This document shows positions 5,676-54,772 of a stretch of DNA of 64,000 nucleotides, piece after piece. Position 1 is the stretch's first letter. Each line of letters begins with the position of its first letter. A program made the translations under genes and the position numbers. The stretch lies in the NCBI RefSeq assembly GCF_034377285.1, contig NZ_CP139715.1:3022001-3086000 (forward strand). Direction: 5' to 3'. The notes below the pieces were generated by a model, which saw nothing but the letters and a program-made list of their open reading frames with translations, was not told the origin of the DNA and searched no databases. The DNA is from Thalassobaculum sp. OXR-137. GTDB taxonomy: Bacteria; Pseudomonadota; Alphaproteobacteria; Thalassobaculales; Thalassobaculaceae.

Positions 5676-5725
5676 GGGGCGTACGGGTTCTCGCCGCGTT
5701 TTCGCTGAAACTCTAACCTCTCCGC

Positions 5726-5805
5726 GCTCCCCGGATTTATTCCGGGGCAAGTCTTCCGGCATGCGCGCAGGCTGAGGTCTTACCCCGGAATAAATCCGGG
5801 GAATG
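5726..5805. repeat. palindromic intergenic repeat, short copy
   Basis: The left arm CTCCCCGGATTTATTCCGGG and a right arm at about 5783-5801 are exact reverse complements over about 20 bases, about 35 bases apart. Each arm is itself a small hairpin (CCCCGGA / TCCGGGG). The interior carries GCTGAGG, corresponding to GCTGACGGG in the longer copies at 16.4, 16.7 and 20.3-21.0 kb. It sits between the convergent Usp and HAD genes and could act as a bidirectional terminator or REP-like element. Confidence 0.85.
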
Positions 5806-5835
5806 TGCAGAAGGGGGAGGGGAAAGCGGAGCGCG

Positions 5836-6558: not shown

Positions 6559-6566
6559 CGCTCGAG

Positions 6567-7052: not shown

Positions 7053-7386
7053 TCGGCCGGACCTCGACGCCCCGGCTGTTCAGGAGCTCCATCAGCTCGC
7101 CCGTCTCGAACATCTCGCGCACGATGTCGCAGCCGCCCACGAACTCGCCCTTCACATAGAGCTGCGGGATCGTCGGCCAGCTCGAGTACTCCTTGATCCC
7201 TTCGCGCAGGGACGGATCGTCGAGCACGTTGATGCCCTTGAACTTGGTGCCGAGATGGCTGAGCACCTGGACCACGACGGCGGAGAATCCGCATTGCGGA
7301 AAGACCGGGGTGCCCTTCATGAACAGCACGACGTCGCTGCTGGCGACTTCGTCGTCGATCCGGGTCTTGAGAGCCTCGTCGAGCAT
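7036..7386 (-). CDS. grxD: monothiol glutaredoxin, Grx4 type
   Basis: This is a 116-residue monothiol glutaredoxin with the CGFS active site ([11 protein letters not shown], about residue 31) and the glutathione-binding segments [19 protein letters not shown]. Such proteins bind and transfer [2Fe-2S] clusters and work with BolA in iron and iron-sulfur homeostasis. ATG 7386 is chosen because AGGAG lies 8 bases upstream; the GTG two codons earlier is only 2 bases from that site. The bolA gene is immediately upstream, the classical partner arrangement. Confidence 0.95.
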
Positions 7387-7419
7387 CGTCACGCTCCTTT
7401 CAGTCTCTGGCCGCGCCGG

Positions 7420-7653
7420 TCATTCCGGGGCGGCGGTTTGCAGGGCGAGCGCATGCAACTCGGTCCCCATGCGTCCCTGAAGAGCTTTGTACACCAGCTG
7501 ATGCTGCTGCACGCGGTTCTTTCCCGTGAAGGCAGACGACACGACATGGCATGCATAGTGGTCGCCGTCGCCGCGCAGATCCTCGATCGTCACATGGGCG
7601 TCCGGGAGCGCTTCCTTGATCAGGCGCTCGATTTCGTTCGCTTCCATGGCCAT
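7420..7653 (-). CDS. bolA: BolA family protein
   Basis: The 77-residue product has the class II KH-like BolA fold, with HYACHVVSSAFTGKNRVQQH and the invariant His in LHALAL. BolA binds monothiol glutaredoxins through a shared [2Fe-2S] cluster, which fits its position between purL and grxD. ATG 7653 follows GGGAG at 8 bases; ATG 7647 is an in-frame alternative. The order purL-bolA-grxD is common in Alphaproteobacteria, so co-expression with purine synthesis is expected. Confidence 0.93.
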   Translation of the reverse strand: MAMEANEIERLIKEALPDAHVTIEDLRGDGDHYACHVVSSAFTGKNRVQQHQLVYKALQGRMGTELHALALQTAAPE

Positions 7654-7678
7654 CGTCGTCTCTCCCTCTGCCGCCGTT

Positions 7679-9901
<2,223 letters not shown>

Positions 9902-9915
9902 TGTCTATCCGGTGT

Positions 9916-10599
9916 TCAGTGCAGCGCTTTGACCAGGCCGTCGAACAGGCCGCGCCCGTCGGTGCCGCCATGGAGGGCTTCGATCGCGTTCTCGGGATGC
10001 GGCATCAGGCCGAGCACCGTTTTGGTGTCGTTGTAGATGCCGGCAATGTCGCGCTGGGAGCCGTTCGGATTGCCGCCGGCGGCGCCGTCGGCCGAGACGT
10101 AGCGGAACGCGACCTGGCCGCGATCCTCCAGCCGGTCGAGGGTGTCCGGATCGGCGAAGTAGTTGCCGTCGTTATGGGCGACCGGCACCGAGATCACCTG
10201 GCCGTCGCTGTAGCCGCTGGTGAACAGGCTCTGCGAGGTCTCGACCTTCAGATGAACGGTCTTGCACACGAATTTCAGCCCGGCATTCCGCATCAGGGCT
10301 CCGGGCAGCATTCCGGCCTCGGTCAGGATCTGGAAGCCGTTGCACACACCCAGCACCGGCACGCCCTTGTCGGAGCGTTCCTTGACCGTGCGCATGGCGG
10401 GGGACAGGGCGCCCATCGCGCCGGCGCGCAGATAGTCGCCGTAGGAGAACCCGCCGGGCACGACGATCAGGTCGACGTCGGGGATCTCGGTTTCCTTGTG
10501 CCAGATCATGGCGGGGTCGCTGCCGGAGGCCTGGCGCAGGGCCATGACCATGTCGCGGTCGCGGTTAGATCCGGGGAAGACGATGATGGCCGATTTCAT
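9916..10599 (-). CDS. purQ: phosphoribosylformylglycinamidine synthase subunit PurQ
   Basis: The 227-residue class I glutamine amidotransferase supplies ammonia to PurL. The nucleophile Cys lies in [10 protein letters not shown] (about residue 88) and the His-Glu pair in LMPHPENA (about 197-201). The N-terminal [16 protein letters not shown] and [13 protein letters not shown] are diagnostic for PurQ. ATG 10599 matches the usual PurQ N-terminus; a longer upstream frame would add a non-conserved extension. purQ is separated from purS by a histidine kinase gene, which is unusual. Confidence 0.97.
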
Positions 10600-10716
10600 G
10601 GGCGCTCCAACGGCGGTTGCCCCGGCAGCTCGACGCTTCGGAGGCGGGGAGGACCTGTTTGGCGGGAAACTAGGGCCGAGCGCGTTCGTGTGCAAGCGCG
10701 GCAAGCAGGCCGGTCG

Positions 10717-12678
10717 TCAGGGGGCCTTCGGCGGCGTCCCGTCGGCGCCGATCCGGACCGTCGGCAGGCGCACGATGGCGGTGGTGCCGATGCCCAGTTC
10801 GCTTTGAATCTCAAGACTTCCGCCGTGCAGTTCCACGAAGGACTTGGACAGGGGGAGCCCCAGACCGATTCCCTCGTATTTCCGGCTCAGCGCACTGTCC
10901 ACCTGCTCGAAGGGGCGCAGCACGATGTCGATGTCGCGCGGATGGATTCCGATTCCCGTATCGCAGACCCGTATCTGCAGGCCGTCGCCGTCGATTTCCG
11001 CCTCAATCGTCACCCGCCCGTCGGCCATGGTGAACTTCGCGGCGTTGGAGATCAGGTTGAACAGGATCTGCCGGATCAGCCGTCCATCGGCCCAGATCGG
11101 CGGCAGGTCGGCCGGAATTTCCATGGCGATCGGAGCCATGGCGCCGGTCTGCCGACTGCGCACCATGCCGACCGAGGCGGCGACTTCGGTGGCGATGTCG
11201 ACCCGGCTCTCGCGCAGCATGATCTGGCCGATCTCGGCCCGGGTCAGGTCGAGCATGTCCTCGATCAGCGACAACAGGCTGTGGCCGCTCGCCTGGACGT
11301 CGCGGGCATAGGCCACGTAGTGCGGATCGCCGAGGGGGCCGAACACTTCGCTGACGAGAAGGTCCGAGAAGCCGATGATGGCGTTCAGCGGCGTGCGCAA
11401 CTCGTGGCTGACCGTGGCCAGGAACATGGATTTGGCTCGGTTCGCCGTCTCGGCGTCGTGCAGCGCCCGCTGCAGGGCCTGCTGGGCCTGCTGCAACTCC
11501 TGACGATAGTCGGTTTCATCGACCGAGGTCCCCCGATAGCCGGCGAAGGCGCCGGTTTCGTCGTAGACCGGCACGCCGGACACCCGCCAATGCCGCATCG
11601 CGCCGGTCTCGTCCATGGTGGCGTAGCGGAAGTCGCGAAACGGCTCGTGCCGTTCGAGCGTTGCCTTGTGCTCGCGCCAGACGGGGGACAAGTCGGGATT
11701 GATCCGGGCGGCCTCCCACCGGGTCCGTCCGAGGAACTGGCTCGGCGGCGCGAACCCGCTGCTCGACCGCAGGTCCATCAGCAGGGTGAAGCGCAGTTTG
11801 GCGTCCAGCTCCCAGAACCGGTCCGAGCTCGCCCGCACGAAGTCGCGCAGGCGGACATCGCTTTCCCGCAGCGCCTGTTCGGCCCGCTTCAGTTCCGTGA
11901 TGTCGCTGACGGTCGTGATCGTCCCGCCGTCCGGTAGACGGGAGTCCCGGATCAGATACCAGCGGTCTTCGGACCAGGGTATCAGGTGATCCTCGCCGCC
12001 GCGCTGATGCTGTGCGACCCGGCGCAGGATATAGGCCTCCAGATCGTCTTCCGCGTCCGGCGGCGGATTGACCCGCGTGCGTTCGCGGATGAGCTCCTCG
12101 AAGGTCATGCCGATCCGCATCGGCACCCCTGTCTCCCGCGCGATCTCCTGCATCGAGGAATTGACGTAGAGAAGGCGGTCGGCGGAGTCCCAGATTTCGA
12201 TGCCCTGCCGGCTATGCTCCAGGCCGCGGCGCAGCAGCCCGTAGCTCAGCATGGCATCGCCGATCTCCTCGATGGCGGTGGGCCCGCGCATGTCGTAGGT
12301 GATGGCGATGTTTCCCGAGGGCAGGCGGGATCCGGAAATCAGCAGCACCGAACCGTTGTCGCGCAGCCGCTCGAGCTGATAGGGCAGGGCGTTCTTGGTA
12401 AAGTTCAGGCGCTCGCGGGTCCGCGCCTCGACGTCGCCGCCGCCGTAATCGCCGCGCTCGGCGTTCCGGCGCACCAGCCGCTCGTACGGCCAGCCAGGAA
12501 CCAGCTCGGCCGGATCGACTTCGGCGAGGCGGGCGAAGCTGGAATTGCTGGCGACGAGCTTCAGGTCGGGGTCGAGAACGACGACCCCGACACTGGCGTG
12601 GGCGACTGCCTCCAGCAATACCGTGGCGTCATGGTCGAGGCGGCCGTCAGTCGGGGCGTTGGTATTCGGCGTCGGCAC
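10717..12678 (-). CDS. PAS-domain sensor histidine kinase inserted in the pur cluster
   Basis: This 653-residue hybrid-free histidine kinase has no membrane helix. Three PAS-like domains occupy about residues 18-130, 150-270 (PAS_7 type, GIEIWDSADRLLYVN) and 285-400. They are followed by a coiled-coil linker, the H-box SHELRTPLNAIIGFSDLL (His425), the N-box with Asn545, the G1 box DTGIGI (about 573) and the G2 box GIGLGLPLSKS (about 603). All catalytic boxes are intact, so it should be active. Sensing is cytoplasmic. No response regulator is encoded nearby. It lies between purS and purQ on the same strand. Similar kinases with this PAS_7 arrangement are common in alphaproteobacteria; its signal is unknown. 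Confidence 0.92.
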   Translation of the reverse strand: MPTPNTNAPTDGRLDHDATVLLEAVAHASVGVVVLDPDLKLVASNSSFARLAEVDPAELVPGWPYERLVRRNAERGDYGGGDVEARTRERLNFTKNALPYQLERLRDNGSVLLISGSRLPSGNIAITYDMRGPTAIEEIGDAMLSYGLLRRGLEHSRQGIEIWDSADRLLYVNSSMQEIARETGVPMRIGMTFEELIRERTRVNPPPDAEDDLEAYILRRVAQHQRGGEDHLIPWSEDRWYLIRDSRLPDGGTITTVSDITELKRAEQALRESDVRLRDFVRASSDRFWELDAKLRFTLLMDLRSSSGFAPPSQFLGRTRWEAARINPDLSPVWREHKATLERHEPFRDFRYATMDETGAMRHWRVSGVPVYDETGAFAGYRGTSVDETDYRQELQQAQQALQRALHDAETANRAKSMFLATVSHELRTPLNAIIGFSDLLVSEVFGPLGDPHYVAYARDVQASGHSLLSLIEDMLDLTRAEIGQIMLRESRVDIATEVAASVGMVRSRQTGAMAPIAMEIPADLPPIWADGRLIRQILFNLISNAAKFTMADGRVTIEAEIDGDGLQIRVCDTGIGIHPRDIDIVLRPFEQVDSALSRKYEGIGLGLPLSKSFVELHGGSLEIQSELGIGTTAIVRLPTVRIGADGTPPKAP

Positions 12679-12791
12679 GGGCTCGGCTCAATTGCTCCAG
12701 GCGAACAGATCTTATCGCAGAATCGTCTGGAATAGCCGCGCGAAAATTACCGTCATTGGTGTGCCGCCGGTCGGCATGCCGGAGCGGCGGC

Positions 12792-13034
12792 TCAGCCGTC
12801 GATCCGGATGCTGTAGTTCTCGATGACCGTATTGGCCAGCAGACGCTCGCACATGGCCTTCACGTCGGCCTCCGCCTTGGCGGCATCGGTCTCGTCCAGG
12901 CTGATCTCGATGACCTTGCCCTGACGCACGTCGCCCACGCCCTGGAAGCCGAGGGTGGACAGCGCGTGGCCGATGGCCTTGCCCTGGGGGTCGAGGACGC
13001 CGGACTTCAGCGTCACATGAACGGTGGCTTTCAT
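12792..13034 (-). CDS. purS: phosphoribosylformylglycinamidine synthase subunit PurS
   Basis: The 80-residue PurS (MKATVHVTLKSGVLDPQGKA) is the small structural subunit that bridges PurL and PurQ in the multi-subunit FGAM synthase. LGFQGVGDVRQGKVIEI is characteristic. It lies 56 bases downstream of purC. A histidine kinase gene, not purQ, follows after 113 bases. Confidence 0.96.
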   Translation of the reverse strand: MKATVHVTLKSGVLDPQGKAIGHALSTLGFQGVGDVRQGKVIEISLDETDAAKAEADVKAMCERLLANTVIENYSIRIDG

Positions 13035-13090
13035 CGTCTAATCCCGTCTTATGCTCGGCGCCCGTCTCAGCGCCGGTTTCTCTGCGCCCG

Positions 13091-13858
13091 TTATTGAACG
13101 GCAATCGGACCCTTGAGGTCCATCGGTCCGGCTTCCGGCAGGACGCCGAGGCGCCGGGCCACTTCCTGATAGGCTTCCTTCACGCCGCCCAGATCGCGGC
13201 GAAAGCGGTCCTTGTCCATCTTTTCGTTCGTGGCGATGTCCCAGAGCCGGCAATTGTCCGGGCTGATCTCGTCCGCGAGCACGATCTGCACCTCGTCATG
13301 CTCGTTGTACCAGCGGCCGAACTCCAGCTTGAAGTCGACGAGCCGCAGGCCGACGCCGAGGAAAAGGCCGACCAGGAAGTCGTTCACCCGCAGCGAGAGG
13401 GTGACCATGTCGTCCAGGTCCTGGGTGGTCGCCCAGCCGAAGCAGGTGATGTGCTCCTCCGAGATCATCGGGTCGCCCAGCTCGTCGGACTTGTAATAGT
13501 ACTCGATGATCGAGCGTGGGAGCTGCGCGCCTTCCTCCATGCCGAAGCGGGTCGCCAGAGAGCCGGCGACCACGTTGCGGACCACCACCTCGACCGGCAG
13601 GATCTCGACCTCGTGGACCAGCTGCTCGCGCATGTTCACGCGGCGGATGAAGTGATTGGGGATGCCGATCTCGGTCAGCTTCGTCATCAGGTATTCGCTG
13701 ATGCGGTTGTTCAGCACGCCCTTGCCGGTGATCAGGCCGTGTTTCTTGTTGTTGAATGCGGTCGCGTCGTCCTTGAAGTACTGGATGATCGTACCGGGCT
13801 CGGGACCCTCGTACATGATCTTCGCCTTGCCCTCGTAGAGCTTGCGGCGTCTGGCCAT
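13091..13858 (-). CDS. purC: phosphoribosylaminoimidazole-succinocarboxamide synthase
   Basis: The 255-residue SAICAR synthetase (PurC) ligates aspartate to CAIR using ATP. Visible signatures are [13 protein letters not shown] at the N-terminus with the nucleotide-binding Lys, [20 protein letters not shown] and [16 protein letters not shown]. It is the first gene of the leftward pur transcript; the upstream 128 bases (13859-13986) should contain the promoter, but no clear box pair is evident. Confidence 0.97.
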
Positions 13859-13986
13859 CGGATGATCTCCAAATAGGCGGATCGAACGTCGGTTCGCATG
13901 CGTCGCGAGGTGCCAGCTTGGCCAGGCTCTCTGCGCGAGAATTCGGACCCTATATCAGCAGGACCCGGGCAACTCAATCACGCGGC

Positions 13987-14793
13987 TCAGCCGGCTGTCC
14001 GTTCGTCCGGCGTTTCCGGCCAGGCGTCGATCGTCTCGTAGGGCGTCCGGTCCGGGCGTCCGGCGGCGAAGCGGAGGACCGGCCGGCCTCCGCCGGGGGC
14101 GGGGAGGGCCACCAGGCTGGAGCTGCTGGTGCCGAACCCGGTATCGCTGACCACCGTCATCGCGCCGGCCGGGCCGGCATCGGCGGCGAAGTCCCGGGAC
14201 CCGAGTAGCATGGCCCAGACGTCCCAGTCGCCCTCGCCCTCTGCACCGCCGGCCGGATCGGGGGCGGGAGCCGCCCGGAACCGATCCAGATAGCGCGCGA
14301 CCCGGGCCGAGGCCTTGCGGTCGTTCAGGTCGTGGGCGGTCAGCATGGACACGCCCTCCGGCACCTTTTCCAAAGTGATCGACGAGTCTCCCCCGTCATC
14401 CTCGCGGTTCGCGATCCAATAGGCGTCGCGGCTGTCGGCGATCAGAAGGTTGAACCCCCGATAGCTCGACGGCTCGACGGTCGCCAGTGCCCGGGCGGCG
14501 TCGGCCGCGTCCGCATGCTCCAGCGCCTCCAGCACGAGCTCGCCGCGCGAGCGCTTGCCGCTGGCGGGGCCCAGGGTGCCGTGCCGGTTCAGGATACAGG
14601 CGACGACGCCGAAATCGTTGATGCCGAACCAGCTCCCGCCGGCCAGGACGTCGAGTCCGGCGACCACCTCGGGGCGGTCCGGCCAGTGCCGACCCGGCGC
14701 TTTCCACGGCCGGTCGGCCATCTCGTCTCGGTTGGCGCCGATGAGCACGGGCCATGTGTGGCCCGGCCGGCGCAGAATGATCACGCTGCACAT
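13987..14793 (-). CDS. NRDE (TANGO2) family protein
   Basis: The 268-residue product begins MCSVIILRRPG and has the family signature GANRDEM at about residues 19-24, with the conserved N-terminal Cys2. Members are Ntn-like folds of unclear reaction; the human homologue TANGO2 is linked to lipid and heme metabolism. Start ATG 14793 is fixed by the conserved N-terminal Cys. No signal peptide or membrane segment. It stands alone between purC and the divergent DUF1476 gene. Confidence 0.88.
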   Translation of the reverse strand: MCSVIILRRPGHTWPVLIGANRDEMADRPWKAPGRHWPDRPEVVAGLDVLAGGSWFGINDFGVVACILNRHGTLGPASGKRSRGELVLEALEHADAADAARALATVEPSSYRGFNLLIADSRDAYWIANREDDGGDSSITLEKVPEGVSMLTAHDLNDRKASARVARYLDRFRAAPAPDPAGGAEGEGDWDVWAMLLGSRDFAADAGPAGAMTVVSDTGFGTSSSSLVALPAPGGGRPVLRFAAGRPDRTPYETIDAWPETPDERTAG

Positions 14794-14974
14794 GGGAGGC
14801 CATAAGTGGCCCGTCGCCGCGGTCTGGGCAAGCCCGAATGCGGCACGGCGGGGCGCGGCGAACTCCCGCGTTCACATCGCAGAGGGTGTTGTGTATGGTC
14901 CGCCCGTTTCGTCCCTACAGTGCTGCGGGCGACGCACCATATTGAGAGTTTCCGCCTAGCCTGGGAGGCGTGTG

Positions 14975-15301
14975 ATGAGCGGGTTCGACGATCGTGAGAA
15001 GGCCCAAGAGAACAAGTCCGCGCATGATGCGGAGCTGCTGTTCAAGGCGACCGCGCGCCGCAACCGGATGCTGGGCGAGTGGGTCGCCGAGGAGTTTCTG
15101 GGGCTGACCGGCGACGCGCGCACCGAGTTCGCCAAGGAAGTGGTCGCCGCCGATTTCGACCGGCCGGGCGACAGCGACGTGGTGGAGTTCGTGCAGGCCA
15201 AGGTCAGCGCCGCCGGTGGCGAGCTGTCGGAAGCCCGTCTGCGCCACAAGATGAACGAGCTGCTGGTCGTGGCCACCGCGCAGATCAGCGCCGATTCCTG
15301 A
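14975..15301 (+). CDS. DUF1476 protein, F1-ATPase inhibitor zeta subunit type
   Basis: The 108-residue product (MSGFDDREKAQENKSAHDAE) is a typical DUF1476 protein. The family includes the zeta subunit of alphaproteobacterial F1Fo-ATPase, which blocks ATP hydrolysis by insertion of its N-terminus into the catalytic interface. The helical bundle region RNRMLGEWVAEEFLGLTG is conserved. ATG 14975 is preferred over GTG 14972 because GGGAGG (14963-14968) is then 6 bases away. It is followed by the broken oxygenase gene. Confidence 0.93.
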   Translation: MSGFDDREKAQENKSAHDAELLFKATARRNRMLGEWVAEEFLGLTGDARTEFAKEVVAADFDRPGDSDVVEFVQAKVSAAGGELSEARLRHKMNELLVVATAQISADS

Positions 15302-15353
15302 GACGCCGGTCCCGAGGCCGTCGCCTTCAAGCGTGTCCGACAGATAGGCTGAC

Positions 15354-16379
15354 ATGAGCATTCCCGCCCTGCGTCCGGGCGACCGGACGCCCAACCTGAT
15401 CTTCCCGGATCTGAAGGGCCGCTCGCGGCAGCTCTACCTCGAGGTTCGCGGCGGTCCCATTCTTGTCGCGGCCGTGCCAAGCCCGAACGAGGGCGAGGGG
15501 CGCAGCGTGCTCTCCGCATTGACCCGGCGGGCGGGAGCGTTGGACAAGATCGGCGCGCACCGGTTCGTGCTCATGCGTCGGGAACCCGATGGCGAGATCG
15601 ACTCGGGCGCGATCGCGATGATCGATCCCTATGGGGACGGCATGCGGCTGTTCCGGCCGCTGCCGGAGGGCTCCGACAATGATGCGGACCGGCCGGCGGC
15701 GGCTGTCGCGGCGCTGGACGCCAACCAACGGGTGATCGCCCTCTTCACCACGGCCGACAGCCGCGACCCCGTCGGCGACGCGATCAAGGTCCTGGAAGTC
15801 GAGGCCAAGGCGGCCCGCGCCGGCGCCCAGCGGCTGGTGCGCTCGGCCCCGGCCATGATCCTGGACAAGCTGCTGCCGAATCCGCTCTGCGACGCGCTGA
15901 TCGAGGCGTGGAAAGCGGACAACGTCGAGGGCACGGTCAACGACGGCTTCAAGAACGTCACCGACGACGCGGTGAAGCGCAACCGCGAGCACGTCGTCCG
16001 CGACCCGGAGATGCAGCGCACCATCGCCCAGCAGATCGGTCCGCGGGTGATGACCGAGATCCAGAAGGTCTTCAACTTCCGGTCGGCCCTCCGCTTCGAG
16101 ATGCTGACGGTTCTGGGCTATGGCGAGGACCGCAAGGATTTCTTCGCCCCCCACCGCGACAGCCTGCGCTCCGAGCAGCGCCGCCGGTTCGCGGTCTCGC
16201 TTAACCTGAACGAGGGTTACGAGGGCGGGTAACTGACCTTTCCGGAATACGGTCCGCATCTCTACGCCCCGCCGAAAGGGGCCGGCGCGGTCTTCGGCTG
16301 CGAGGTTCTGCACGAGGCCAAGCCGGTGACCAAGGGCCAGCGCTGGGTGCTGACGACCTTCCTGATCGATCCTAAGTGA
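15354..16379 (+). pseudogene. peroxiredoxin-like / 2OG-Fe(II) oxygenase gene with in-frame TAA
   Basis: The frame runs from ATG 15354 to TGA 16377-16379 (would be 341 residues) but is cut by one TAA at 16230-16232 (codon 293). Residues 1-145 resemble a thioredoxin/AhpC-type fold without an obvious peroxidatic Cys. Residues 165-341 form a prolyl-4-hydroxylase-like 2OG-Fe(II) domain. Iron ligands His267 and Asp269 (APHRD) precede the stop; the distal His320 (LHEAKPV) and Arg330 (KGQRW) follow it. A truncated 292-residue product would lack these and be inactive. Homologues read Glu at the stop, so a single G-to-T change (GAA to TAA) explains it. The rest of the frame is undamaged, pointing to a recent event. 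Confidence 0.85.
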
Positions 16380-45926: not shown

Positions 45927-46991
45927 ATGGTCTCGTCCAACCCGACCGCCCAGCCCCGCGTCAATCTGCACAGCGACACCGCCACGCGCCCGACCGACGG
46001 CATGCGCAAGGCGATCTACGAGGCGGAGGTTGGCGACGAGCAGGCGGGCGAGGATCCCACCGCCATCCGGCTCCAGGAGAAGGTGGCCGAGCTGCTGGGC
46101 AAGGAGGCGGCCGTTTTCCTGCCGAGCGGGACCATGTGCAACGAGATCTCCTACCGGGTGTGGTGCGACCACGGCGATGAGATCATCCTGGAGGAGAACA
46201 GCCACGCCCTGCATTACGAGGTCGGCGGCCCCGGCGCGCTGGCCGGCGTGATGACCCGCACGATCAAGGGCACCAAGGGCTGGTTTACCGCCGATCAGGT
46301 CGAAGCGCTGATCCGCCCGAAATCCCGCCACATGCCGCGCCAGAAGCTGGTCTCAGTGGAGAACACCGCCAACATGGCCGGCGGCATGATCTGGCCGCTC
46401 GAGACCTTGAAGGACGTCGCCGGAGCCGCCCGCAAGCATGGCATGCGGGTTCATATGGACGGAGCGCGGCTGCCGAACGCGGTGGTCGCCTCGGGCGTCT
46501 CCTTCGCCCAGTTCGCCGATCCCTGCGACAGCGCCTGGATCGACCTGTCCAAGGGGCTGGGCTGTCCGATCGGCGGCGTGCTGGCCGGGAGCCGGGACTT
46601 CATCGAGGAGTGCTGGCGCTTCAAGCACCAGTTCGGCGGGGCCCTGCGCCAGTCGGGCATCGTCGCGGCGGCGGGCGTCTACGCGCTTGATCACCATGTG
46701 GAGCGGCTGGCCGACGACCACGCCCGCGCCCGGCGTCTGGCCGAGGGCATCGAGGATGTGGAGGGGATCGTCGTCGATCCGGCCTCGGTGGAGACCAACA
46801 TGGTGTTCTTCGACATCGGGGGCACGGGGATCAACGCGCCGGAATTCTCCCGCCGGCTGATGACCGAGCACGAAGTGAAGATCAGCGCGGTGCAGCCGAC
46901 GGTGCTGCGGGCGGTGACCTATCTCGGCATCGAGGACCCGGACATCGAATTCGCCATCGCCGCCATCCGCGCCGTGGCGGCGGAGGCCTGA
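45927..46991 (+). CDS. low-specificity L-threonine aldolase family protein
   Basis: The 354-residue fold-type I PLP enzyme has LHSDTATRPTDGMRKAI at the N-terminus, GKEAAVFLPSGTMCNEIS, HMDGARLPNA and the PLP Lys in WIDLSKGLGCPIGGV (about 209). The family cleaves L-threonine or allo-threonine to glycine and acetaldehyde; exact stereospecificity is not readable. ATG 45927 is preceded by GGAG at 45915-45918. Confidence 0.93.
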   Translation: MVSSNPTAQPRVNLHSDTATRPTDGMRKAIYEAEVGDEQAGEDPTAIRLQEKVAELLGKEAAVFLPSGTMCNEISYRVWCDHGDEIILEENSHALHYEVGGPGALAGVMTRTIKGTKGWFTADQVEALIRPKSRHMPRQKLVSVENTANMAGGMIWPLETLKDVAGAARKHGMRVHMDGARLPNAVVASGVSFAQFADPCDSAWIDLSKGLGCPIGGVLAGSRDFIEECWRFKHQFGGALRQSGIVAAAGVYALDHHVERLADDHARARRLAEGIEDVEGIVVDPASVETNMVFFDIGGTGINAPEFSRRLMTEHEVKISAVQPTVLRAVTYLGIEDPDIEFAIAAIRAVAAEA

Positions 46992-47075
46992 GGGTGAGAG
47001 CGTCCGTTTAGTGCGGGGCAGTGGGCCGTCGGCGCTGTGGATTGCTTTCCAGGTATGACGCGGCGGTAGGGATTA

Positions 47076-47098
47076 CCCCGGAATAAATCCGGGGAGTG
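47076..47098. repeat. isolated single arm of the palindromic repeat
   Basis: CCCCGGAATAAATCCGGGGA followed by GTG matches the right arm of the elements at 5.7, 16.4 and 16.7 kb. No matching left arm is found within 120 bases upstream, so this is a decayed or partial copy. Confidence 0.85.
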
Positions 47099-47175
47099 TG
47101 AGAGGAGAGGGAGGTCGGCGTGGGGACACTGCGCCGGATTTCCGCATCCGTTTCGCTCGTCCCCCATTTCACACT

Positions 47176-47194
47176 GCCCGGCCTTGTGCCGGGC
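47176..47194. terminator. 7-bp GC hairpin between convergent genes
   Basis: GCCCGGC (47176-47182) pairs with GCCGGGC (47188-47194) around CTTGT. It lies between the convergent threonine aldolase and hpnE genes. No strong T-run, so the assignment as terminator is tentative. Confidence 0.45.
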
Positions 47195-47295
47195 CAAGGC
47201 CGGCGGCGTGACGGATCGTTTCAGATGTGAAGCGCCGTCAAGGGCAGTCCTCGAATGCGTTCGGGCGGAGTTGAAGAATGCCCCGCGTCGCGGGT

Positions 47296-48549
47296 TCAGC
47301 CGGCGCGACCGCTCAGGGCGTCGGCGGCCTGTCTGCCCGAACGGATGGCGCCTTCGATGGTCGCGGGCAGACCGGTATCGGTCCAGTCGCCCGCCAGGAC
47401 GAGGTTGCGCCAGGAGGTCCGGGCCGGCGGCCTTCGGGACAGGGAGCGCGGGTCCTGGCGGAAGGTGGCGCGCTTCTCCTTGACGATCCGGCCCGGCGGC
47501 TGCGGTGCCGCCAGCAGTCCCAGCACCGGCGCGATCTCCGACCACAGGGTCGAGGCGAGCTCCTCGCCGGACCGGTCGAGAAGGGTCTCGGCGGCGCTCA
47601 CCGTCACGCTGGCGACGGGTCCGCGCAGGAAAATCCACTGGGCCGTACCGCCGGTCAGGCCCATCAGATGGCCGCCGCCGGACAGACGGGCGGGGGCGTC
47701 GAGACGGAAATGGGCGTTCACGATCGCCGAGGCGGCCTCCGGCACAGGCAGGTCCGGCAGCAGTCCGGCCGCCACCTGAGGCGGTACGGCAAGCACCAGC
47801 CAGTCCTCGGACGACAGATCGACCGTGTCTGTGGGAAAATGCAGGGCGACGGCCCGGTCGGCTCCCAGCTCGATCGACCTGAGGCGGCGGCCGAATCCGA
47901 CCCTCACGCCGCGCACCGCCAGCACCGCCAGGGCGGGATCGACGAAGCTCTCGCTCAGACCGTCGCGGGCCGTCAGCGGCGTCGCCTCGCCCGTTACGAT
48001 CACCTCGCGCATCACATCGCGCAGCAGCCGTGCGGCGGCGATCTCGGGTTCGGCATTCAGGATCGCGACGGTCATCGGGCGCCAGAACCGCTCCATCAGG
48101 ACGCCTGGACCGAGCGCCTGCATCACGGTGGTTTCCCGACCGGCCATCGCCAGCCGGACCATGCCCAGCGCATCGGGCGCGCGCGCTCCCGGAACCTGGC
48201 GCATCGGTGCGGTCAGGCGCCGCCAGAGACCGCCCTCGCCGGGCCGCACGGTCCATTGGAGGCCGCTAGGAAGGTCCTGGAACGGGAAGGTTGGCGCGGA
48301 GGCGGTCAGCGACCCGCTCGCCCCGATCTCGGAGAGATAGGCCAGAGCGGCGTGGTTGGCCGAGAGCAGCAGGTGGTTGCCGTTGTCGATCCGGCACCCG
48401 ATCGTGCTGTCGAGATAGGACCGGCACCGTCCGCCGGCATGGCCCGCCGCTTCGTGCAGAACGACCGACCGGCCGCTGCCGCTGAGCGACAGCGCGGCCG
48501 CCAGTCCGGCCAGTCCGGCGCCGACGACATGCACGGTTCCGCCGCTCAC
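47296..48549 (-). CDS. hpnE: hydroxysqualene dehydroxylase HpnE
   Basis: The 417-residue FAD-dependent amine-oxidase-fold enzyme reduces hydroxysqualene to squalene, the last step of the HpnCDE route. The dinucleotide-binding motif VVGAGLAGLAAALSLSGSG (about 7-25) and GGRCRSYLDSTIGCRIDNGNH are typical; the C-terminal LAGDWTDTGLPATIEGAIRS is the second FAD-binding segment. It ends the hpnC-hpnD-hpnE block; its ATG lies 10 bases after the hpnD stop. No hopene cyclase follows. Confidence 0.94.
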   Translation of the reverse strand: MSGGTVHVVGAGLAGLAAALSLSGSGRSVVLHEAAGHAGGRCRSYLDSTIGCRIDNGNHLLLSANHAALAYLSEIGASGSLTASAPTFPFQDLPSGLQWTVRPGEGGLWRRLTAPMRQVPGARAPDALGMVRLAMAGRETTVMQALGPGVLMERFWRPMTVAILNAEPEIAAARLLRDVMREVIVTGEATPLTARDGLSESFVDPALAVLAVRGVRVGFGRRLRSIELGADRAVALHFPTDTVDLSSEDWLVLAVPPQVAAGLLPDLPVPEAASAIVNAHFRLDAPARLSGGGHLMGLTGGTAQWIFLRGPVASVTVSAAETLLDRSGEELASTLWSEIAPVLGLLAAPQPPGRIVKEKRATFRQDPRSLSRRPPARTSWRNLVLAGDWTDTGLPATIEGAIRSGRQAADALSGRAG

Positions 48550-48559
48550 CGCCCGGCGC

Positions 48560-49417
48560 TCACCGGAAGAGGTGGCGCAACAGCACCAGCCGGCGCCAGC
48601 CGGAGAGCGATACCCGGCGCCGCGGCTCTCGCCAGTCGCCCTCCTCCATTCGGTCCAGCAGCGCCTCGTAGCCGACCATCATCATCACGGCGGAGCGCAT
48701 GGCCCGGCGGTCGCAGCGGGCGATGAGCGCTTTCGCCTCGGCGTAGCGGCTGCGTGCCTGGGCGGCGAGCTCGCGGCACAGGGCCGGGAGGTTGGGATGG
48801 TCGACCACCGCCTGCGGGGCGCGGCTGGCGATCCCGTGCTTCTGCAGCAGCTCCTCGGGCAGATAGAGCCGGCCGTCGGCCGCATCCTCGCCCAGGTCGC
48901 GCAGGATGTTGGTGAGCTGCATCGCCTCGCCGAGCGCGACGGCGGCGGCATCGGCCTCCGGCTGCTCGGCGCCGAAGCAGCGCATGGACAGCAGCCCCAC
49001 CGCGCCCGCGACCCGGCGGCAGTAGAGCCGGAGTTCCGCCATGCCCGGGGCCACGTTTCGCCCTTGCAGGTCGGTCTCCATCCCGTCGATCAGGGCGTCG
49101 AACTCCGCCCTGGGCAGGCGATAGCGCTGGATCGCGGGGGCCAGGGCACGGCCGATCGGTTCGCGCGGCACCTCCGCAGCATAAAGGCGGGCAATCTCGT
49201 CGCGCCATCCGTCCAGACGCGCCTGCCGCACGGCGAGATCCCCCGGCTCGTCGGCGATGTCGTCGATGATCCGGCAGAAGGCGTAGACCGCGTACATGGC
49301 GCGCCGCCGGTCCGGGGGCAGGATACGCATGCCCCAGCGGAACGAGGTTCCGGACGCCTCGACCACGGCTCTGGCTTCCGCCTGAGCCTGCGGATCCTCG
49401 AAATCGACGGCGCTCAT
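48560..49417 (-). CDS. hpnD: presqualene diphosphate synthase HpnD
   Basis: The 285-residue squalene/phytoene synthase-family enzyme couples two farnesyl diphosphates to presqualene diphosphate. Both Asp-rich motifs are present: CRIIDDIADEPGD (about 50-60) and TNILRDLGEDAADGRLYLP (about 170-188). The ATG 49417 overlaps the hpnC stop (ATGA), showing translational coupling. The reading frame is open far upstream, but that part overlaps hpnC and is not coding. Confidence 0.94.
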   Translation of the reverse strand: MSAVDFEDPQAQAEARAVVEASGTSFRWGMRILPPDRRRAMYAVYAFCRIIDDIADEPGDLAVRQARLDGWRDEIARLYAAEVPREPIGRALAPAIQRYRLPRAEFDALIDGMETDLQGRNVAPGMAELRLYCRRVAGAVGLLSMRCFGAEQPEADAAAVALGEAMQLTNILRDLGEDAADGRLYLPEELLQKHGIASRAPQAVVDHPNLPALCRELAAQARSRYAEAKALIARCDRRAMRSAVMMMVGYEALLDRMEEGDWREPRRRVSLSGWRRLVLLRHLFR

Positions 49418-50280
49418 GCCGGCGACCGGCGGGCGGGCCTGCCGGCGGACAGCGTGCGCCGCCACAGGCATCGCAGGGCCGCCCAGGCGCCGACAGCCAG
49501 CATGGCCGGCCGCGACAGTCGGACCCGACGGGCCAAAGGGTCCTCGCGCTTCAACCGCGCGGCGAGGGCGACGGCGAGCGCCAGGACCGCCGCCGATTCC
49601 AGAGCGAGACGGGTGGAGCGCATCTGCAGGGGCAGCGGGGCCGCCCTGTCCAGCAGATGCTCGACCTCGTCCAGGCACCGATCCAGCACCTCGCGCAGGC
49701 CGGGCGTCGTCTGGGCGCCGGACAGCGCGCTTTCGGCGACACCCTCTGCCTGAAGCCAGTCGGCGGGCAGGTAGATCCGGTCCAGCAGCCGGTAGTCTTC
49801 GCCGCAATCCTGCAGATGGTTCAGCACCTGCAGCGCCGTGCACAGGGCGTCGGAGGCCGGATAGCCGGCGGCATCCTCGCCATGCAGATCGAGCAGGAAG
49901 CGGCCCACGGGATTGGCGGAGTCGGCGCAATAGGCCATCAGCGCCTCCCAGTCGGCGCAGCGCGGTTGGATCGCGTCGCGGCGAAACGCCCGAAGGAGCT
50001 GCCGCAGCCGACCGATGGCAGGCTCCGACAGAGTGTCGCGGGCGTGGTGTGCCGGCGCCAGATCGGCCGCCTCCATGTCGCCGATCAGCACCGCCTCGAA
50101 GCGGTCGAGCTGCCTCAGTTTTTCGGTACCGCTCAGGGCGGGATCGTCGGCGATATCGTCGGACGCCCGGGCGGCGTCGTAGAACCGCAGGACAGAAGGG
50201 CGCAGGCGCGCCGCGATCAGCAGGGAGCCGACCGGGAAGTTCTCGCCTGAAGCGGTGCGCGTCGGCGTCCGGCCGATCAT
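49414..50280 (-). CDS. hpnC: hydroxysqualene synthase HpnC
   Basis: The 288-residue squalene/phytoene synthase-family enzyme converts presqualene diphosphate to hydroxysqualene. Motifs are ENFPVGSLLIAARLRPSVLRF, ASDDIADDPALSG (first Asp-rich) and LQVLNHLQDCGEDYRLLDR (second). ATG 50280 overlaps the stop of the catalase-like gene (ATGA) and is preferred over the ATG three codons upstream. Part of the six-gene coupled block 53532-47296. Confidence 0.93.
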   Translation of the reverse strand: MIGRTPTRTASGENFPVGSLLIAARLRPSVLRFYDAARASDDIADDPALSGTEKLRQLDRFEAVLIGDMEAADLAPAHHARDTLSEPAIGRLRQLLRAFRRDAIQPRCADWEALMAYCADSANPVGRFLLDLHGEDAAGYPASDALCTALQVLNHLQDCGEDYRLLDRIYLPADWLQAEGVAESALSGAQTTPGLREVLDRCLDEVEHLLDRAAPLPLQMRSTRLALESAAVLALAVALAARLKREDPLARRVRLSRPAMLAVGAWAALRCLWRRTLSAGRPARRSPA

Positions 50281-51272
50281 CCCGGGCACCCCGGTGGCGC
50301 CGTTGCCTCTGCGCCGCGGTTGGCGGCCGAGGCGGCATAGGCGGCGCGGCGCAACGCGTTGATCGAGCCCAACGGCTCATGGGCGGAAAGGCAGTTCCAG
50401 GGGGCGAAGGTGAGGCGGTCGCCGAGAGCGACGGTCGCCGCCACGTCCTGGGGCGGGATTTCGAGGCGGCCCACCGTCACGCTCGGGCTGTGCCAGGCCC
50501 GCCGAACGTCTTCCATCGGGTCGCTTTCGAGGACGCGCGGCTGGAGCCGGAAGTCGAAGCGGATCGGACCCTTGTCGAGGGTGGCCTGTAGCTTGCCGGC
50601 GAGATCCTTGCCTTTGGCCGGACGCCTGTTCCTGGCGTCGATGTCGGGCACCAGCGCGAACTTCATGGCCCCGTCGCCCAACCGGTAGGGTGTCACGCTG
50701 CCGTAGGAAAGCTGCGCCAGATCGCGACCGCGCAGATGCCGCAGGCTGGAAGCGCTAAGGAAAGCGAAATACCGCCAGCGTGCGCGCCAGGGCAGAAGGC
50801 TGGGAAACATATAGCGGGGCGCTGCGACGGCGAAGGGCGTGGCGCGGCGGATGCCGTCCAGGGCGCGGAACAGCGCCAGCGCCTCGCTCGCGTCCCGGGC
50901 TGGACCGGTCTCGGCATTCATCAGCACGAAGTCCTGCTGGCCCGGCGGTGCGCCATCGCAAACCGGGCCCTCGACGCCCATCACCTTGACGGCCAGACCA
51001 CGCAGGTCCGGATGATTATCCTCGGCGAAGAAGGAGTTTGAGAACCGCACCAGAGCGTCATAGCGGCCGGGCCGGGCAAACAGGCCATGGCGGACCCCCG
51101 GATCCTCCGGGGGATCGACCGTCAGGGTTGCCCGCAGGCAGGCGTGGGTCTTGCGGTGGAATTGCCGCGGAAGCCGTCCGTCGGGTTCCGGTTGTTGGAA
51201 GGTCCGGGCGCAGATCGCCAGCAACTCGTCGCGTTGTGCCGGGTCGACCGGACAGGAGACCGGTCTACTCAT
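50277..51272 (-). CDS. catalase-like heme protein
   Basis: The 331-residue protein has the minimal catalase fold: an N-terminal FHRKTHACLRATLTV with the distal-side His, LVRFSNSFFAEDNHPDLRGL and AVKVMGVEG, and QDFVLMNAETG. It is shorter than true catalases (about 480-700) and resembles catalase-related peroxidases and allene-oxide-synthase-like heme proteins that act on lipid hydroperoxides. Real activity unknown. Its start overlaps the sulfotransferase stop and its stop overlaps the hpnC start (both ATGA), so it belongs to the squalene block. The association is unusual. Confidence 0.82.
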   Translation of the reverse strand: MSRPVSCPVDPAQRDELLAICARTFQQPEPDGRLPRQFHRKTHACLRATLTVDPPEDPGVRHGLFARPGRYDALVRFSNSFFAEDNHPDLRGLAVKVMGVEGPVCDGAPPGQQDFVLMNAETGPARDASEALALFRALDGIRRATPFAVAAPRYMFPSLLPWRARWRYFAFLSASSLRHLRGRDLAQLSYGSVTPYRLGDGAMKFALVPDIDARNRRPAKGKDLAGKLQATLDKGPIRFDFRLQPRVLESDPMEDVRRAWHSPSVTVGRLEIPPQDVAATVALGDRLTFAPWNCLSAHEPLGSINALRRAAYAASAANRGAEATAPPGCPG

Positions 51273-52321
51273 AGCGGGTATCCGAGCCGTTCGAGCCCCG
51301 GCGCACAGGCGCTGGTCAGGGTGGTTTGCACCTCCTCGGGCAGGGTCTGGAACTTGGAGCGGGCCGGCCGCGGGATCGCCGCGACCTCGTCGAGCCAGGC
51401 GTCGTCCGCCAGCGACGGGTCGATGAAGCGGATCAACTCGTCCAACTTCCTCCTCGGGTCGGATTGAACATCCTCGAAGCGGAGATTCAGCAGACGCTCG
51501 GACGGCAACCCGGCGAAACACTCCAGGCCGATCAGGATCAGGTCGCTCCAGAACCGGCCGAAATCCTCGAGTGTCGGCAGGGCGGCGGTCTTCTCGATGT
51601 CCAGAACCGTGAACACGATCCGTTCGATCAGCGGATTCAACCGGCTTCCCCGGTCGGCGCTGAAGCCCTGTTGCGGATCGATGCCCAAGCGCCGGCAGCG
51701 CAGGATGGCGCCGACCAGCACCCGGAAATTGTGATGCTGGCTCATCGACATCGCCGTGTCGCGCCCGTCCCGGTAGACATGGACGACCCGGGCGTCCGGG
51801 AACATCCGAAGCAGCTTGGCGGCGTGCATCAGGGTGCCGCCGGAGCGCTCGATCCAGACCCTGCGGTCCAGCATCTCGGCCAGATCGCCGAACAGGGCCC
51901 GGTACTGCTCGGCAATCGGCATGCGGGGCCGGGCGCGGACCCGGGGCTCCAGCGCGTCCAGCAGCGCTTCCGGCGTATCGGTCAGGTGCGGCAGGGTGAC
52001 GGCGATGATCGGCGGCATGTCGGCCGCCCCGTAGCGCGACGCAGGGTCGTCGTAGGGATACAGTGTCTCCTCGACCACGTGGCCGTCCTTGAGCATGGCG
52101 TGCAGGCCGGCGCTCTGGGTCGTCAGCAGCCGCCACATGCGGTCGCCGTCCGGCCGGCGCAGGGAGAAGGCGTCGGCGCCGAGCGTGACGAAGAATTCCG
52201 AGAGGCTGAGGATCTGCGGATGCCGGTTCAGCAGGTCGGATACCATGGTCGATCCGCATCGGCCCGTGCTGAGGATCAGAACCGGAGGAATCGTCAGGCC
52301 GCTCGGGGCAGTGTCGCTCAC
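51269..52321 (-). CDS. sulfotransferase family protein
   Basis: The 350-residue protein has the 5'-phosphosulfate loop LSTGRCGSTMVSDLLNR (about 17-33) and the 3'-phosphate-binding segment VVHVYRDGRDTAMSMSQHH (about 170-190) of PAPS-dependent sulfotransferases. It should transfer sulfate to a hydroxyl of a small molecule or lipid and release PAP. The start is GTG 52321, overlapping the stop of the MpaB gene (GTGA). cysQ, which hydrolyses PAP, is 1.7 kb upstream in the same direction. Acceptor unknown. Confidence 0.85.
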   Translation of the reverse strand: MSDTAPSGLTIPPVLILSTGRCGSTMVSDLLNRHPQILSLSEFFVTLGADAFSLRRPDGDRMWRLLTTQSAGLHAMLKDGHVVEETLYPYDDPASRYGAADMPPIIAVTLPHLTDTPEALLDALEPRVRARPRMPIAEQYRALFGDLAEMLDRRVWIERSGGTLMHAAKLLRMFPDARVVHVYRDGRDTAMSMSQHHNFRVLVGAILRCRRLGIDPQQGFSADRGSRLNPLIERIVFTVLDIEKTAALPTLEDFGRFWSDLILIGLECFAGLPSERLLNLRFEDVQSDPRRKLDELIRFIDPSLADDAWLDEVAAIPRPARSKFQTLPEEVQTTLTSACAPGLERLGYPL

Positions 52322-53532
52322 AGCAATCCGTCCTTCTCCGCATGGGCATGCTGGGGCAGACGATAGCTCGCGCCCTGCTCCCCATACAGCGATACGGTCA
52401 GCATGGTCTGGAACTGGCTCGCGCGGCGGCGCGCACCCAGGCTGGGAGCGATGCGATACAGCACCTGCTCCGCGCCGTTCTTGAGCCGCAGCAGTGCCAA
52501 TGTCCCCCGGGTGTTCATCGGCGGATAATTGAGTTGATCGGCAAGATCGTCTCCGATCATGGCCCGCGAGATCCGGTAGATCTTGCGGGCGAGCGCCCGC
52601 CGCGATTTCGGCTCGGTGAAGCCGGCTACGAGCGGGGCGGAGTTGATCAGGCCGTTGGCCAGGATGATGGATTCCATGGTCGGCGGCGGCTCGCAGGTCG
52701 ACCCGATCCGGTGCAGCCACAGGGCCTCGTCCTCCGAGGTGAACAGCAGGTCGTGGGGCACGCCCATCAGGTGGGCGGAATAGCGCCATACCTGCATGAA
52801 GGACGTCCGCTCCTCGTCGGACAGGGTCACGCCCAGCATCGCCGCGCGCTTCAGCAGCAGACCGGAGAACGAGGCGGTGGCATAGGCCATATGCGCTGCA
52901 CTCAACGGTGTGCCCCAGGCGCTCTCGTCCCACTCCGGGTCCTGCGCCAGAAGCTGTCGGATGCGGGCATGGACCAGGCGGACGCGGACTGACAGCTTCC
53001 AGCCGTCGCCGGTGCGGTCGAGCCCGCCGGGCAGGAAGATCTCCACGAGCTGCCGGTTGTTCTGCTTCAGGCGGCGGACCCCCTGGTCGACGATCCGGCC
53101 GGTGATGCTGAACGACTGGCTGATCAGCGTGGAGAAACCCTCGATCAGCACGGCGGCGACGAAGGCGCCGACGAACATCTCGGAATTGCGGTGAAAGGCG
53201 CGGCATCCGGGCAGGAAGCCGGCCCGGTCGACCCAGGGGGGCGTGGCGTCGATATCGGCGAAGAACGCCCTCACGCTCTCCGGCGCATCGTCCAGGGCGG
53301 ATGGGTCGCCTTCGATCCCCCGGGCGATCCAGGATTGCGCGTCGACCGGATTGTGCCGCTGCAGCTCGGCCATCAACGCGTCGGCTTCCGGGTCGCCGAT
53401 GCGGGTCGCGGCCACGTACCGATCGGCGAGCGCCCGATCGACGCCGGCCGCCCGGGCGTACCCCTCCAGATAGGCCGTCGGCATCGCGGGCGTTGCGACA
53501 GGGCCTGGCTGGGGTGGAACGGGCTGGGTCAC
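52318..53532 (-). CDS. MpaB / latex-clearing-type oxygenase family protein
   Basis: The 404-residue protein belongs to the oxygenase MpaB family (DUF2236; ER-bound oxygenase mpaB and rubber oxygenase Lcp share this fold). Diagnostic segments are PPWVDRAGFLPGCRAFHR, TGDGWKLSVRVRLVHARIR with the His expected to ligate heme, and WGTPLSAAHMAYATASFSG. Known members cleave polyprenyl double bonds oxidatively (MpaB, Lcp). It heads the tightly coupled block with a sulfotransferase, catalase-like protein and hpnCDE, so a squalene-type or other isoprenoid substrate is a reasonable inference. No signal peptide. Confidence 0.82.
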   Translation of the reverse strand: MTQPVPPQPGPVATPAMPTAYLEGYARAAGVDRALADRYVAATRIGDPEADALMAELQRHNPVDAQSWIARGIEGDPSALDDAPESVRAFFADIDATPPWVDRAGFLPGCRAFHRNSEMFVGAFVAAVLIEGFSTLISQSFSITGRIVDQGVRRLKQNNRQLVEIFLPGGLDRTGDGWKLSVRVRLVHARIRQLLAQDPEWDESAWGTPLSAAHMAYATASFSGLLLKRAAMLGVTLSDEERTSFMQVWRYSAHLMGVPHDLLFTSEDEALWLHRIGSTCEPPPTMESIILANGLINSAPLVAGFTEPKSRRALARKIYRISRAMIGDDLADQLNYPPMNTRGTLALLRLKNGAEQVLYRIAPSLGARRRASQFQTMLTVSLYGEQGASYRLPQHAHAEKDGLL

Positions 53533-53596: not shown

Positions 53597-53980
53597 CTAG
53601 TTGACGTCGATGGTGCCGGGCGAGGTTCGGATCGTGCCGGGGCGCGTGTCGATCGTTCCGGCCGGCGCCGGGGGTTCCACCTGGCGAATTTTCGGCGGCT
53701 CCGTCTGGATCGGCTTCGACGGCCTGGGCGTCGGGTTGGGTTCGATCCTGGGCGGCTGCGTCGGCTGCCGGGACGGCCGCTGAACCGGCTCGGTGGGCGC
53801 GATCGGGCGCGTGGGCTCAGGTTGCTGCGCCGCAGGGGCCGGCGGTACGATCTCGCTCACCGGCTTGCCCTCGGAGATCGGATGGCGCGGGGCCTGCGGC
53901 GCTGGCTTCACCTCGGCCGCCTGCGCGCCGGACGCGGCCAACGCGAGCAGGGCCGCGCCCCAAAGCAGGGTCTTCCTCAT
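53597..53980 (-). CDS. proline-rich exported protein
   Basis: The 127-residue product has a signal peptide (MRKTLLWGAALLALAASGAQA, cleavage about residue 21). The mature part is nearly a third proline, with repeats of PP/PxP and Arg, and a C-terminal repeat of (D/G)TIxTRPGT type (TIDTRPGTIRTSPGTIDVN). It is probably a disordered periplasmic spacer. It lies 3 bases after cysQ and 64 bases before the MpaB gene. No family is recognised. Confidence 0.7.
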   Translation of the reverse strand: MRKTLLWGAALLALAASGAQAAEVKPAPQAPRHPISEGKPVSEIVPPAPAAQQPEPTRPIAPTEPVQRPSRQPTQPPRIEPNPTPRPSKPIQTEPPKIRQVEPPAPAGTIDTRPGTIRTSPGTIDVN

Positions 53981-53983
53981 GCT

Positions 53984-54772
53984 TCACCCACCGCGGGCAA
54001 TGAAATGCCCGTTGCGGAAATCCGGTTTGCCGTAGTCGAAGGGGGTGCCGTCGAATTTGGTCATCGACCCGCCGGCGGCCAGCAGAACCGCATGGCCGGC
54101 GGCCGTGTCCCACTCCATCGTCGGACCGGTCCGCGGATAGAGATCGGCATCGCCCCTTGCGACGAGACAGAACTTCAGGGCGGAGCCGCGCGATACGCTT
54201 TCCTTAACATCCATAGTTTCGATATAGGCTTCCAACTCTGGATTGCGATGGCTGCGGCTGGCGACGATGGTCAGGCCGTCGGGCCCGGGCTTGCGCACCG
54301 AGATCGGCGTGCGGGTGCCGTCGGCGCTCTCCTCCCAGGCCCCTTCGCCCAGGATTCCGCCCCAGACCATGCCGTCGACCGGCGTGTGCAGGGCGCCCAG
54401 GACCGGCACGCCGTCCCAGATCAGGCCGATATTTACGGTGAAGTCGGTGCTCTTGTTGATGAACTCCTTGGTGCCGTCCAGCGGGTCCACCAGCCAGAAC
54501 CGGCCGCCGGAGACGTCGGGGATGTCGCCGGCCTCCACGCTCTCCTCGGCCACAACTGGGATGCCGGGGGTGAGCGCCTTCAGCACCGGCACGATATGGG
54601 CGTCGGCCGCCCGGTCGGCGGCGGTCACCGGGCTGCCGTCCATCTTGTCGATCACCGCGGTGTCGGAGCGGTAATAGGGCAGGATGATCTTTCCCGCCTC
54701 GCGGGCGAGGACGGCGATGGCGTCGAGCAGGGCGATCCGGTTGGCCGGATCGACCGCTGTAACTGAAGGCAT
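53984..54772 (-). CDS. cysQ: 3'(2'),5'-bisphosphate nucleotidase CysQ-type
   Basis: The 262-residue inositol monophosphatase-superfamily enzyme has the metal-binding triad: Glu in VAEESVEAG (about 75), LVDPLDGTKEF (about 94-102), and TMEWDTAAGHAVL (about 223). CysQ dephosphorylates PAP, the toxic by-product of PAPS use. Its place close to a sulfotransferase gene on the same strand fits this role well, though CysQ also serves sulfate assimilation. ATG 54772 lies 5 bases after the upstream gene's stop. Confidence 0.92.
   Translation of the reverse strand: MPSVTAVDPANRIALLDAIAVLAREAGKIILPYYRSDTAVIDKMDGSPVTAADRAADAHIVPVLKALTPGIPVVAEESVEAGDIPDVSGGRFWLVDPLDGTKEFINKSTDFTVNIGLIWDGVPVLGALHTPVDGMVWGGILGEGAWEESADGTRTPISVRKPGPDGLTIVASRSHRNPELEAYIETMDVKESVSRGSALKFCLVARGDADLYPRTGPTMEWDTAAGHAVLLAAGGSMTKFDGTPFDYGKPDFRNGHFIARGG

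Follow-up and report, generated by a model that had tools for sequence, protein, structure and literature searches.

The six genes at positions 47296-53532 of a 64,000-nucleotide stretch of Thalassobaculum sp. OXR-137 DNA (contig NZ_CP139715.1, 3,022,001 to 3,086,000; the whole stretch is called the window) form a real operon, in which mpaB, a 3'-phosphoadenosine-5'-phosphosulfate (PAPS) sulfotransferase gene and a catalase-like gene, here called the trio or the cassette, are followed by hpnC, hpnD and hpnE. Moreover, the oxygenase subfamily encoded by this mpaB is associated, across bacterial families, with squalene-making bacteria that have no hopene cyclase. We tentatively propose, with a confidence somewhat short of even, that, in bacteria lacking hopanoids, the cassette oxygenates or cleaves squalene or a related prenyl chain and then sulfates it, which yields an amphiphilic lipid. 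This proposal is supported by the operon order, which is conserved in three Thalassobaculum genomes, and by the predicted structure of MpaB, which matches the latex clearing protein (Lcp), a cleaver of isoprene chains. A literature search turned up no published description of a pathway that combines these genes, as the first-pass annotation of the window had supposed.

That annotation had placed the six genes on the minus strand, and an open reading frame (ORF) check returned exactly the same coordinates (Table 1), together with the four overlaps of four bases (52318-52321, 51269-51272, 50277-50280 and 49414-49417) and the 10-base gap between hpnD and hpnE. Four-base ATGA/GTGA overlaps are frequent in bacterial operons, and thus they argue for co-transcription and not for a shared pathway. 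Another ORF (46919-48256, minus strand) was rejected as a hidden extra gene, since it has no family and overlaps hpnE in another frame, and a scan for promoters and terminators gave nothing beyond chance level. Both T. litoreum DSM 18839 (71-84% identity) and a metagenome-assembled genome of the Thalassobaculaceae (MAG; G027, 63-76% identity) have the six genes in this same order, which shows that the order is not due to chance and rules out that the trio is unique to strain OXR-137. The enzyme classes named at first pass (MpaB/Lcp, sulfotransferase, catalase-like protein and HpnCDE) were right by family and Protein Data Bank (PDB) matches. Among the squalene synthesis proteins, HpnD and HpnE pass their model cut-offs, and HpnC falls 5 bits short of its own equivalog cut-off, yet this model is clearly the top one; squalene synthesis is established for homologues of all three (reviewed in PMC12583986).

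The absence of a hopene cyclase, noted at first pass for the window, holds for the entire genome of strain OXR-137, as searched with the TIGR01507 and PF13243 models, and the reading of the block as a hopanoid operon is thereby ruled out. PF13243 is also absent from T. litoreum, the MAG G027 and a further relative (G026), and Thalassobaculum is listed among the genera without shc (PMC12583986), in agreement with the genome search. Neither hpnG nor hpnH lies in the six-gene block (no genome-wide search was made for either). The sulfotransferase, HpnE and the cyclase were sought in one sample of 385 Alphaproteobacteria genomes; 42 of its 143 HpnE-bearing genomes, some of them partial or sub-cut-off HpnE matches, have no cyclase. 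The MpaB-sulfotransferase pair, counted where a close sulfotransferase orthologue has MpaB adjoining or near, occurs in 8 of these 42 genomes, in 0 of the 101 with both HpnE and cyclase, and in 0 of the 242 without HpnE. Two of the eight (G068 and G293) have an HpnE of 242 bits, below the cut-off of 283, but with an HpnC-HpnD fusion adjoining. Such fused proteins, of about 577 residues, are encoded beside a divergent HpnE at L126 (10236-11969) and L129 (7573-9303). In a separate search of 80 chosen genomes, the MpaB subfamily, taken at an identity of at least 44%, was found in 15 of the 42 HpnE-positive, cyclase-negative genomes (in three of the 15, G219, G389 and G396, a distantly cyclase-like protein reaches about 190 bits, which was not scored as squalene-hopene cyclase) and in none of 35 comparators (18 cyclase-bearing and 17 HpnE-negative), absence in draft genomes being never certain; it is additionally present in G027 and in one exception, the MAG HXMU1429-12 (G416). 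Counted by family, this amounts to 8 of 22 against 0 of 23 families (Fisher 0.0015; some families stand in both groups and the test is not tree-based), and the within-family contrasts are concordant in f16 and f35. The MpaB-bearing genomes of the HpnE-positive, cyclase-negative group have a complete hpnCDE with no cyclase nearby, and none of the MpaB homologues found lies in a hopanoid cluster, an arrangement that the first-pass annotation had named as one that would weaken its reading. This distant similarity to squalene cyclase, in a C-terminal domain scoring about 190 bits, is seen in G398 and G002 as well as in G219, G389 and G396, mostly in open frames of 1100-1600 amino acids.

The MpaB structure predicted with AlphaFold2 (predicted local distance difference test score, pLDDT, 84), a check suggested at first pass, has the Lcp fold: its best Foldseek matches are 5o1l/5o1m, the open and closed forms of Lcp (E 2e-8), and the next one, t-anethole oxygenase 8s1j, is weaker (E 0.04). 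Its H188, which corresponds to the proximal haem histidine His198 of Lcp, is invariant across 19 homologues. The Lcp residues used for comparison are Glu148, Lys167, Thr168 and Arg164 (PMC5522427), of which Arg164 is the sole one kept, aligning with R154 in a profile alignment. On sequence grounds, the protein is thus a haem protein of the MpaB/Lcp family and not an Lcp. Cleavage of C=C bonds with a b-type haem is reported for members of the MpaB-type oxygenases (PMC12724181), and for the present MpaB it is an activity predicted from family membership.

In the sulfotransferase, the STGRCGST motif (5'-phosphosulfate-binding loop) and the FPxARxxHxxRDGR motif (3'-phosphate-binding) are conserved in 10 homologues. 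No Pfam or NCBIfam model matches the catalase-like protein, and its PDB match by sequence, 3e4w, is a catalase-related protein of 33 kDa from Mycobacterium avium; the structure model of the catalase-like protein has low confidence (pLDDT 57), so that only the overall fold match, to 3e4w/3e4y, CatF and 1u5u/3dy5, was used. Residues R36, H39, R76, Y190 and R197 are invariant in 6 homologues and correspond, by motif and spacing, to the haem residues R64, H67, R102, Y353 and R360 of allene oxide synthase (PMC5617202). This fold match and the kept haem residues, like the KatG catalase-peroxidase gene directly upstream of the MpaB homologue in G396 (L161, 6105-9861), would fit a trio that handles hydroperoxides of fatty acids or other lipids in an oxylipin-type chemistry, squalene being itself the membrane end product, but the operon has no lipoxygenase, the distal Thr66 and Asn137 of allene oxide synthase appear, by motif, to be replaced (F38, Q112/Q113; PMC5617202), and the catalase-like gene is absent from several MpaB-sulfotransferase loci (L070, L071 and L075), which leaves this explanation a slim chance.

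Under the sulfated-lipid proposal, the substrate we infer is squalene, and the order of the steps, the product and its role would be as follows. HpnC, HpnD and HpnE would make squalene via hydroxysqualene, and MpaB would add O2 across a double bond of the C30 chain or adjacent to it. A hydroperoxide intermediate would be either the substrate of the catalase-related protein or the hazard against which it protects. The resulting alcohol would then be sulfated, either straight away or once an unlinked reductase has reduced an aldehyde, and the product would be a squalene-derived lipid, anionic and amphiphilic, in bacteria without hopene cyclase. MpaB-type cleavage would give an aldehyde or ketone, which has to be reduced before sulfation. 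The genome G216 has two sulfotransferases, a short-chain dehydrogenase/reductase (SDR) and a distant MpaB, the last two with genes overlapping by four bases, and this SDR could be the reduction step, which fits a path from aldehyde through alcohol to sulfate. Alternatively, hydroxysqualene, the HpnCDE intermediate, is itself an alcohol and could be sulfated directly. Families f66 and f76 have, directly after MpaB, an MMPL/RND transporter weakly similar to HpnN, which transports hopanoids; in L158, LolA-like and DUF1302 proteins come next. These RND-linked rows form a clade of the MpaB tree (support 97/97) separate from the sulfotransferase-linked ones. Such an exporter would fit the export of a lipid product, since a transporter of membrane lipids might be expected next to an enzyme that makes a lipid of the envelope. 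It is unlikely, though worth stating, that in Alphaproteobacteria without hopene cyclase the Lcp-fold oxygenase and the sulfotransferase turn squalene into an exported anionic terpenoid lipid that replaces hopanoids in the envelope, with one operon for this in Thalassobaculum.

Cassette loci apart from hpnCDE rule out that the cassette is always tied to these genes. The MpaB-sulfotransferase pair, often with the catalase-like gene, is autonomous in five or more other genomes of Alphaproteobacteria: all three genes stand alone in G169 and G307, and G068, G293 and G294 have MpaB (one or two copies) and the sulfotransferase only. Thus, the cassette is an independent unit. At E 1e-30, a phylum-wide sample added no other orthologue of the sulfotransferase; weak matches (33-37%; G126, G260, G334 and G400) were excluded, and those genomes have no MpaB. 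In HXMU1429-12 the trio is 71-72% identical, with no hpn genes beside it, while its hpnCDE is only 45-48% identical. This looks like a self-moving unit, and, with the adjacency confined to one genus, it would agree with a mere neighbourhood accident, in which unrelated genes are co-transcribed in one genus and the co-occurrence is a by-product of lineage and genome size; however, we consider this improbable, given the order retained at 63-76% identity and the family-level association (p 0.0015 over 8 families). Two genomes (G023 and G024) with the same genus label as the 5.6-Mb genome of strain OXR-137 are 1.5 Mb in size and rated 99% complete, and the catalase-like and sulfotransferase genes were not found in them. 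In G026, L081 (7132-8408) has a reductase that by eye resembles divinyl chlorophyllide reductase, divergent from hpnC.

Several observations weigh against the proposal that the trio modifies squalene. Among the loci read, hpnCDE adjoins the cassette only in Thalassobaculum; G026, of the same genus, has hpnCDE with neither trio nor cyclase, and many other HpnE-positive, cyclase-negative genomes likewise have no trio. HXMU1429-12 has the trio, hpnCDE and a cyclase, the last two together on a different contig in a standard hopanoid cluster. The bias of the pair to HpnE-positive, cyclase-negative genomes (Fisher 1e-8) comes from a statistic that ignores phylogeny, and the comparators of the MpaB search were hand-picked large genomes. 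Furthermore, Glu148, Lys167 and Thr168 of Lcp are replaced by I137, Q157 and N158 in the profile alignment (with a gap nearby, so that the positions are approximate), and the chemistry of MpaB may therefore differ from that of Lcp. MpaB may also carry out another oxygenation instead of a cleavage. In addition, there is no reductase in the Thalassobaculum operon, and Thalassobaculum would need an unlinked one. Thus, of the sulfating squalene-oxidation pathway suggested at first pass, the conserved block, the absence of the cyclase and the co-occurrence in cyclase-free genomes stood, while the adjacency turned out to be limited to one genus, and squalene and its cleavage stay at the level of a prediction.

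Nearly all these bacteria should have ubiquinone. The cassette could act on this or another endogenous prenyl lipid (the ubiquinone tail or a polyprenol), oxidised and sulfated like the sulfomenaquinone of mycobacteria, with hpnCDE as a co-regulated neighbour. The autonomy of the cassette elsewhere agrees with this, as do the oxidation and sulfation of menaquinone-9 by CYP128 and Stf3 (PMC7404182) and the cleavage of a farnesyl tail on an aromatic ring by MpaB of the mycophenolic acid pathway (PMC12724181). We give this explanation a modest chance, since a nearly universal ubiquinone cannot explain the bias to HpnE-positive, cyclase-negative genomes, and the operon with hpnCDE is also left unexplained. 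Another cyclase-independent fate of squalene is known from Azospirillum brasilense, in which hpnCDE supplies the synthesis of C30 carotenoids (PMC13274349); Methylobacterium extorquens too makes a C30 carotenoid (PMC10448405). The cassette might accordingly modify a C30 carotenoid from the squalene route (hpnCDE with crtNP) to a cleaved or sulfated one. However, no crtNP stands near hpnCDE in any locus read (no genome-wide search was made), and the crt genes that the genome carries in a photosynthesis-type cluster (L015) are a C40 set, so that the chance appears small. The four squalene/phytoene synthase-like genes of strain OXR-137 are those of HpnC and HpnD, crtB in the crt cluster and one more with a housekeeping neighbourhood (L016). 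The L015 cluster points to genes for C40 carotenoids, and possibly for bacteriochlorophyll, in Thalassobaculum.

Many cyclase-free alphaproteobacteria carry squalene genes, and their use of squalene is only partly explained; the present work ties a defined oxygenase subfamily to this squalene-bearing, cyclase-free group, and T. litoreum DSM 18839, a type strain that can be cultured, carries the putative route as one operon. If the proposal is true, an open-chain oxidised or sulfated squalene lipid would join hopanoids, sterols and C30 carotenoids, and the Lcp/MpaB family would have a biological non-rubber substrate. Immediately upstream of the block, on the same strand, lie the genes of CysQ, which would clear the 3'-phosphoadenosine 5'-phosphate left by the sulfotransferase and which has this position in T. 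litoreum but not in G027, and of a small proline-rich protein with a 58% identical copy at the equivalent place in T. litoreum; the association of both with the block is uncertain.

Table 1. Features of the operon, its upstream neighbours and related loci (window positions unless a locus is named)
Feature	Position	Strand	Evidence and remarks
MpaB/Lcp-type (PF09995) haem oxygenase	52318..53532	-	PF09995 75.3 bits, cut-off 23; start GTG 53532 or ATG 53484
PAPS sulfotransferase (Sulfotransfer_3)	51269..52321	-	PF13469 66 bits, cut-off 27
Catalase-related haem protein (MAP-2744c/allene oxide synthase fold)	50277..51272	-	PDB 3e4w, E 1e-7 by sequence
HpnC, squalene synthase	49414..50280	-	TIGR03464 245.7 bits, cut-off 250.45
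HpnD, presqualene diphosphate synthase	48560..49417	-	TIGR03465 325.7 bits, cut-off 278.6
HpnE, hydroxysqualene dehydroxylase	47296..48549	-	TIGR03467 354.2 bits, cut-off 283.05
CysQ, 3'(2'),5'-bisphosphate nucleotidase	53984..54772	-	TIGR01331 284 bits
Small proline-rich secreted protein between CysQ and MpaB	53597..53980	-	No family
crtI-crtB-crtC-crtD-crtE-crtF cluster with bchD-like gene and tspO	L015 (G000:C1:2477500-2497400), ~4957-15521		Names read by eye from translations
MpaB and MMPL/RND transporter (HpnN/BstA-like, weak)	L158 8911-14626		Also in L159, L160, L162, L164 and L165 (fragmentary in L165)

Compared with known systems, the block shares the hpnCDE squalene module with hopanoid hpn clusters, and differs from them in its genome without cyclase, in having no hpnG or hpnH in the block, and in an MpaB subfamily found in 0 of 18 cyclase-bearing comparators. 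The catalase-like protein resembles allene oxide synthase and MAP-2744c in fold and in the spacing of haem residues (R36-H39 and Y190-R197), whereas it has no lipoxygenase partner and differs from allene oxide synthase at the distal Thr and Asn positions. CYP128-Stf3 of M. tuberculosis is likewise an oxygenase with a PAPS sulfotransferase, encoded together and acting on a prenylated lipid (PMC7404182), but its oxygenase is a cytochrome P450, which a family search did not find in the present cassette, where MpaB stands instead; its substrate is menaquinone and it has no hpnCDE. The rubber oxygenase Lcp (5o1l/5o1m), of a class that cleaves isoprene chains, has the same family (PF09995), fold (template modelling score 0.63-0.66) and proximal haem histidine as the present MpaB, which in contrast is only 20% identical to it, has three Lcp residues replaced and is operonic with squalene synthesis. 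Finally, the bacterial and fungal MpaB-type oxygenases MpaB, Nro1 and 8s1j belong to the same Pfam family or fold, within which the present protein represents a distinct subfamily with a sulfotransferase or RND partner.

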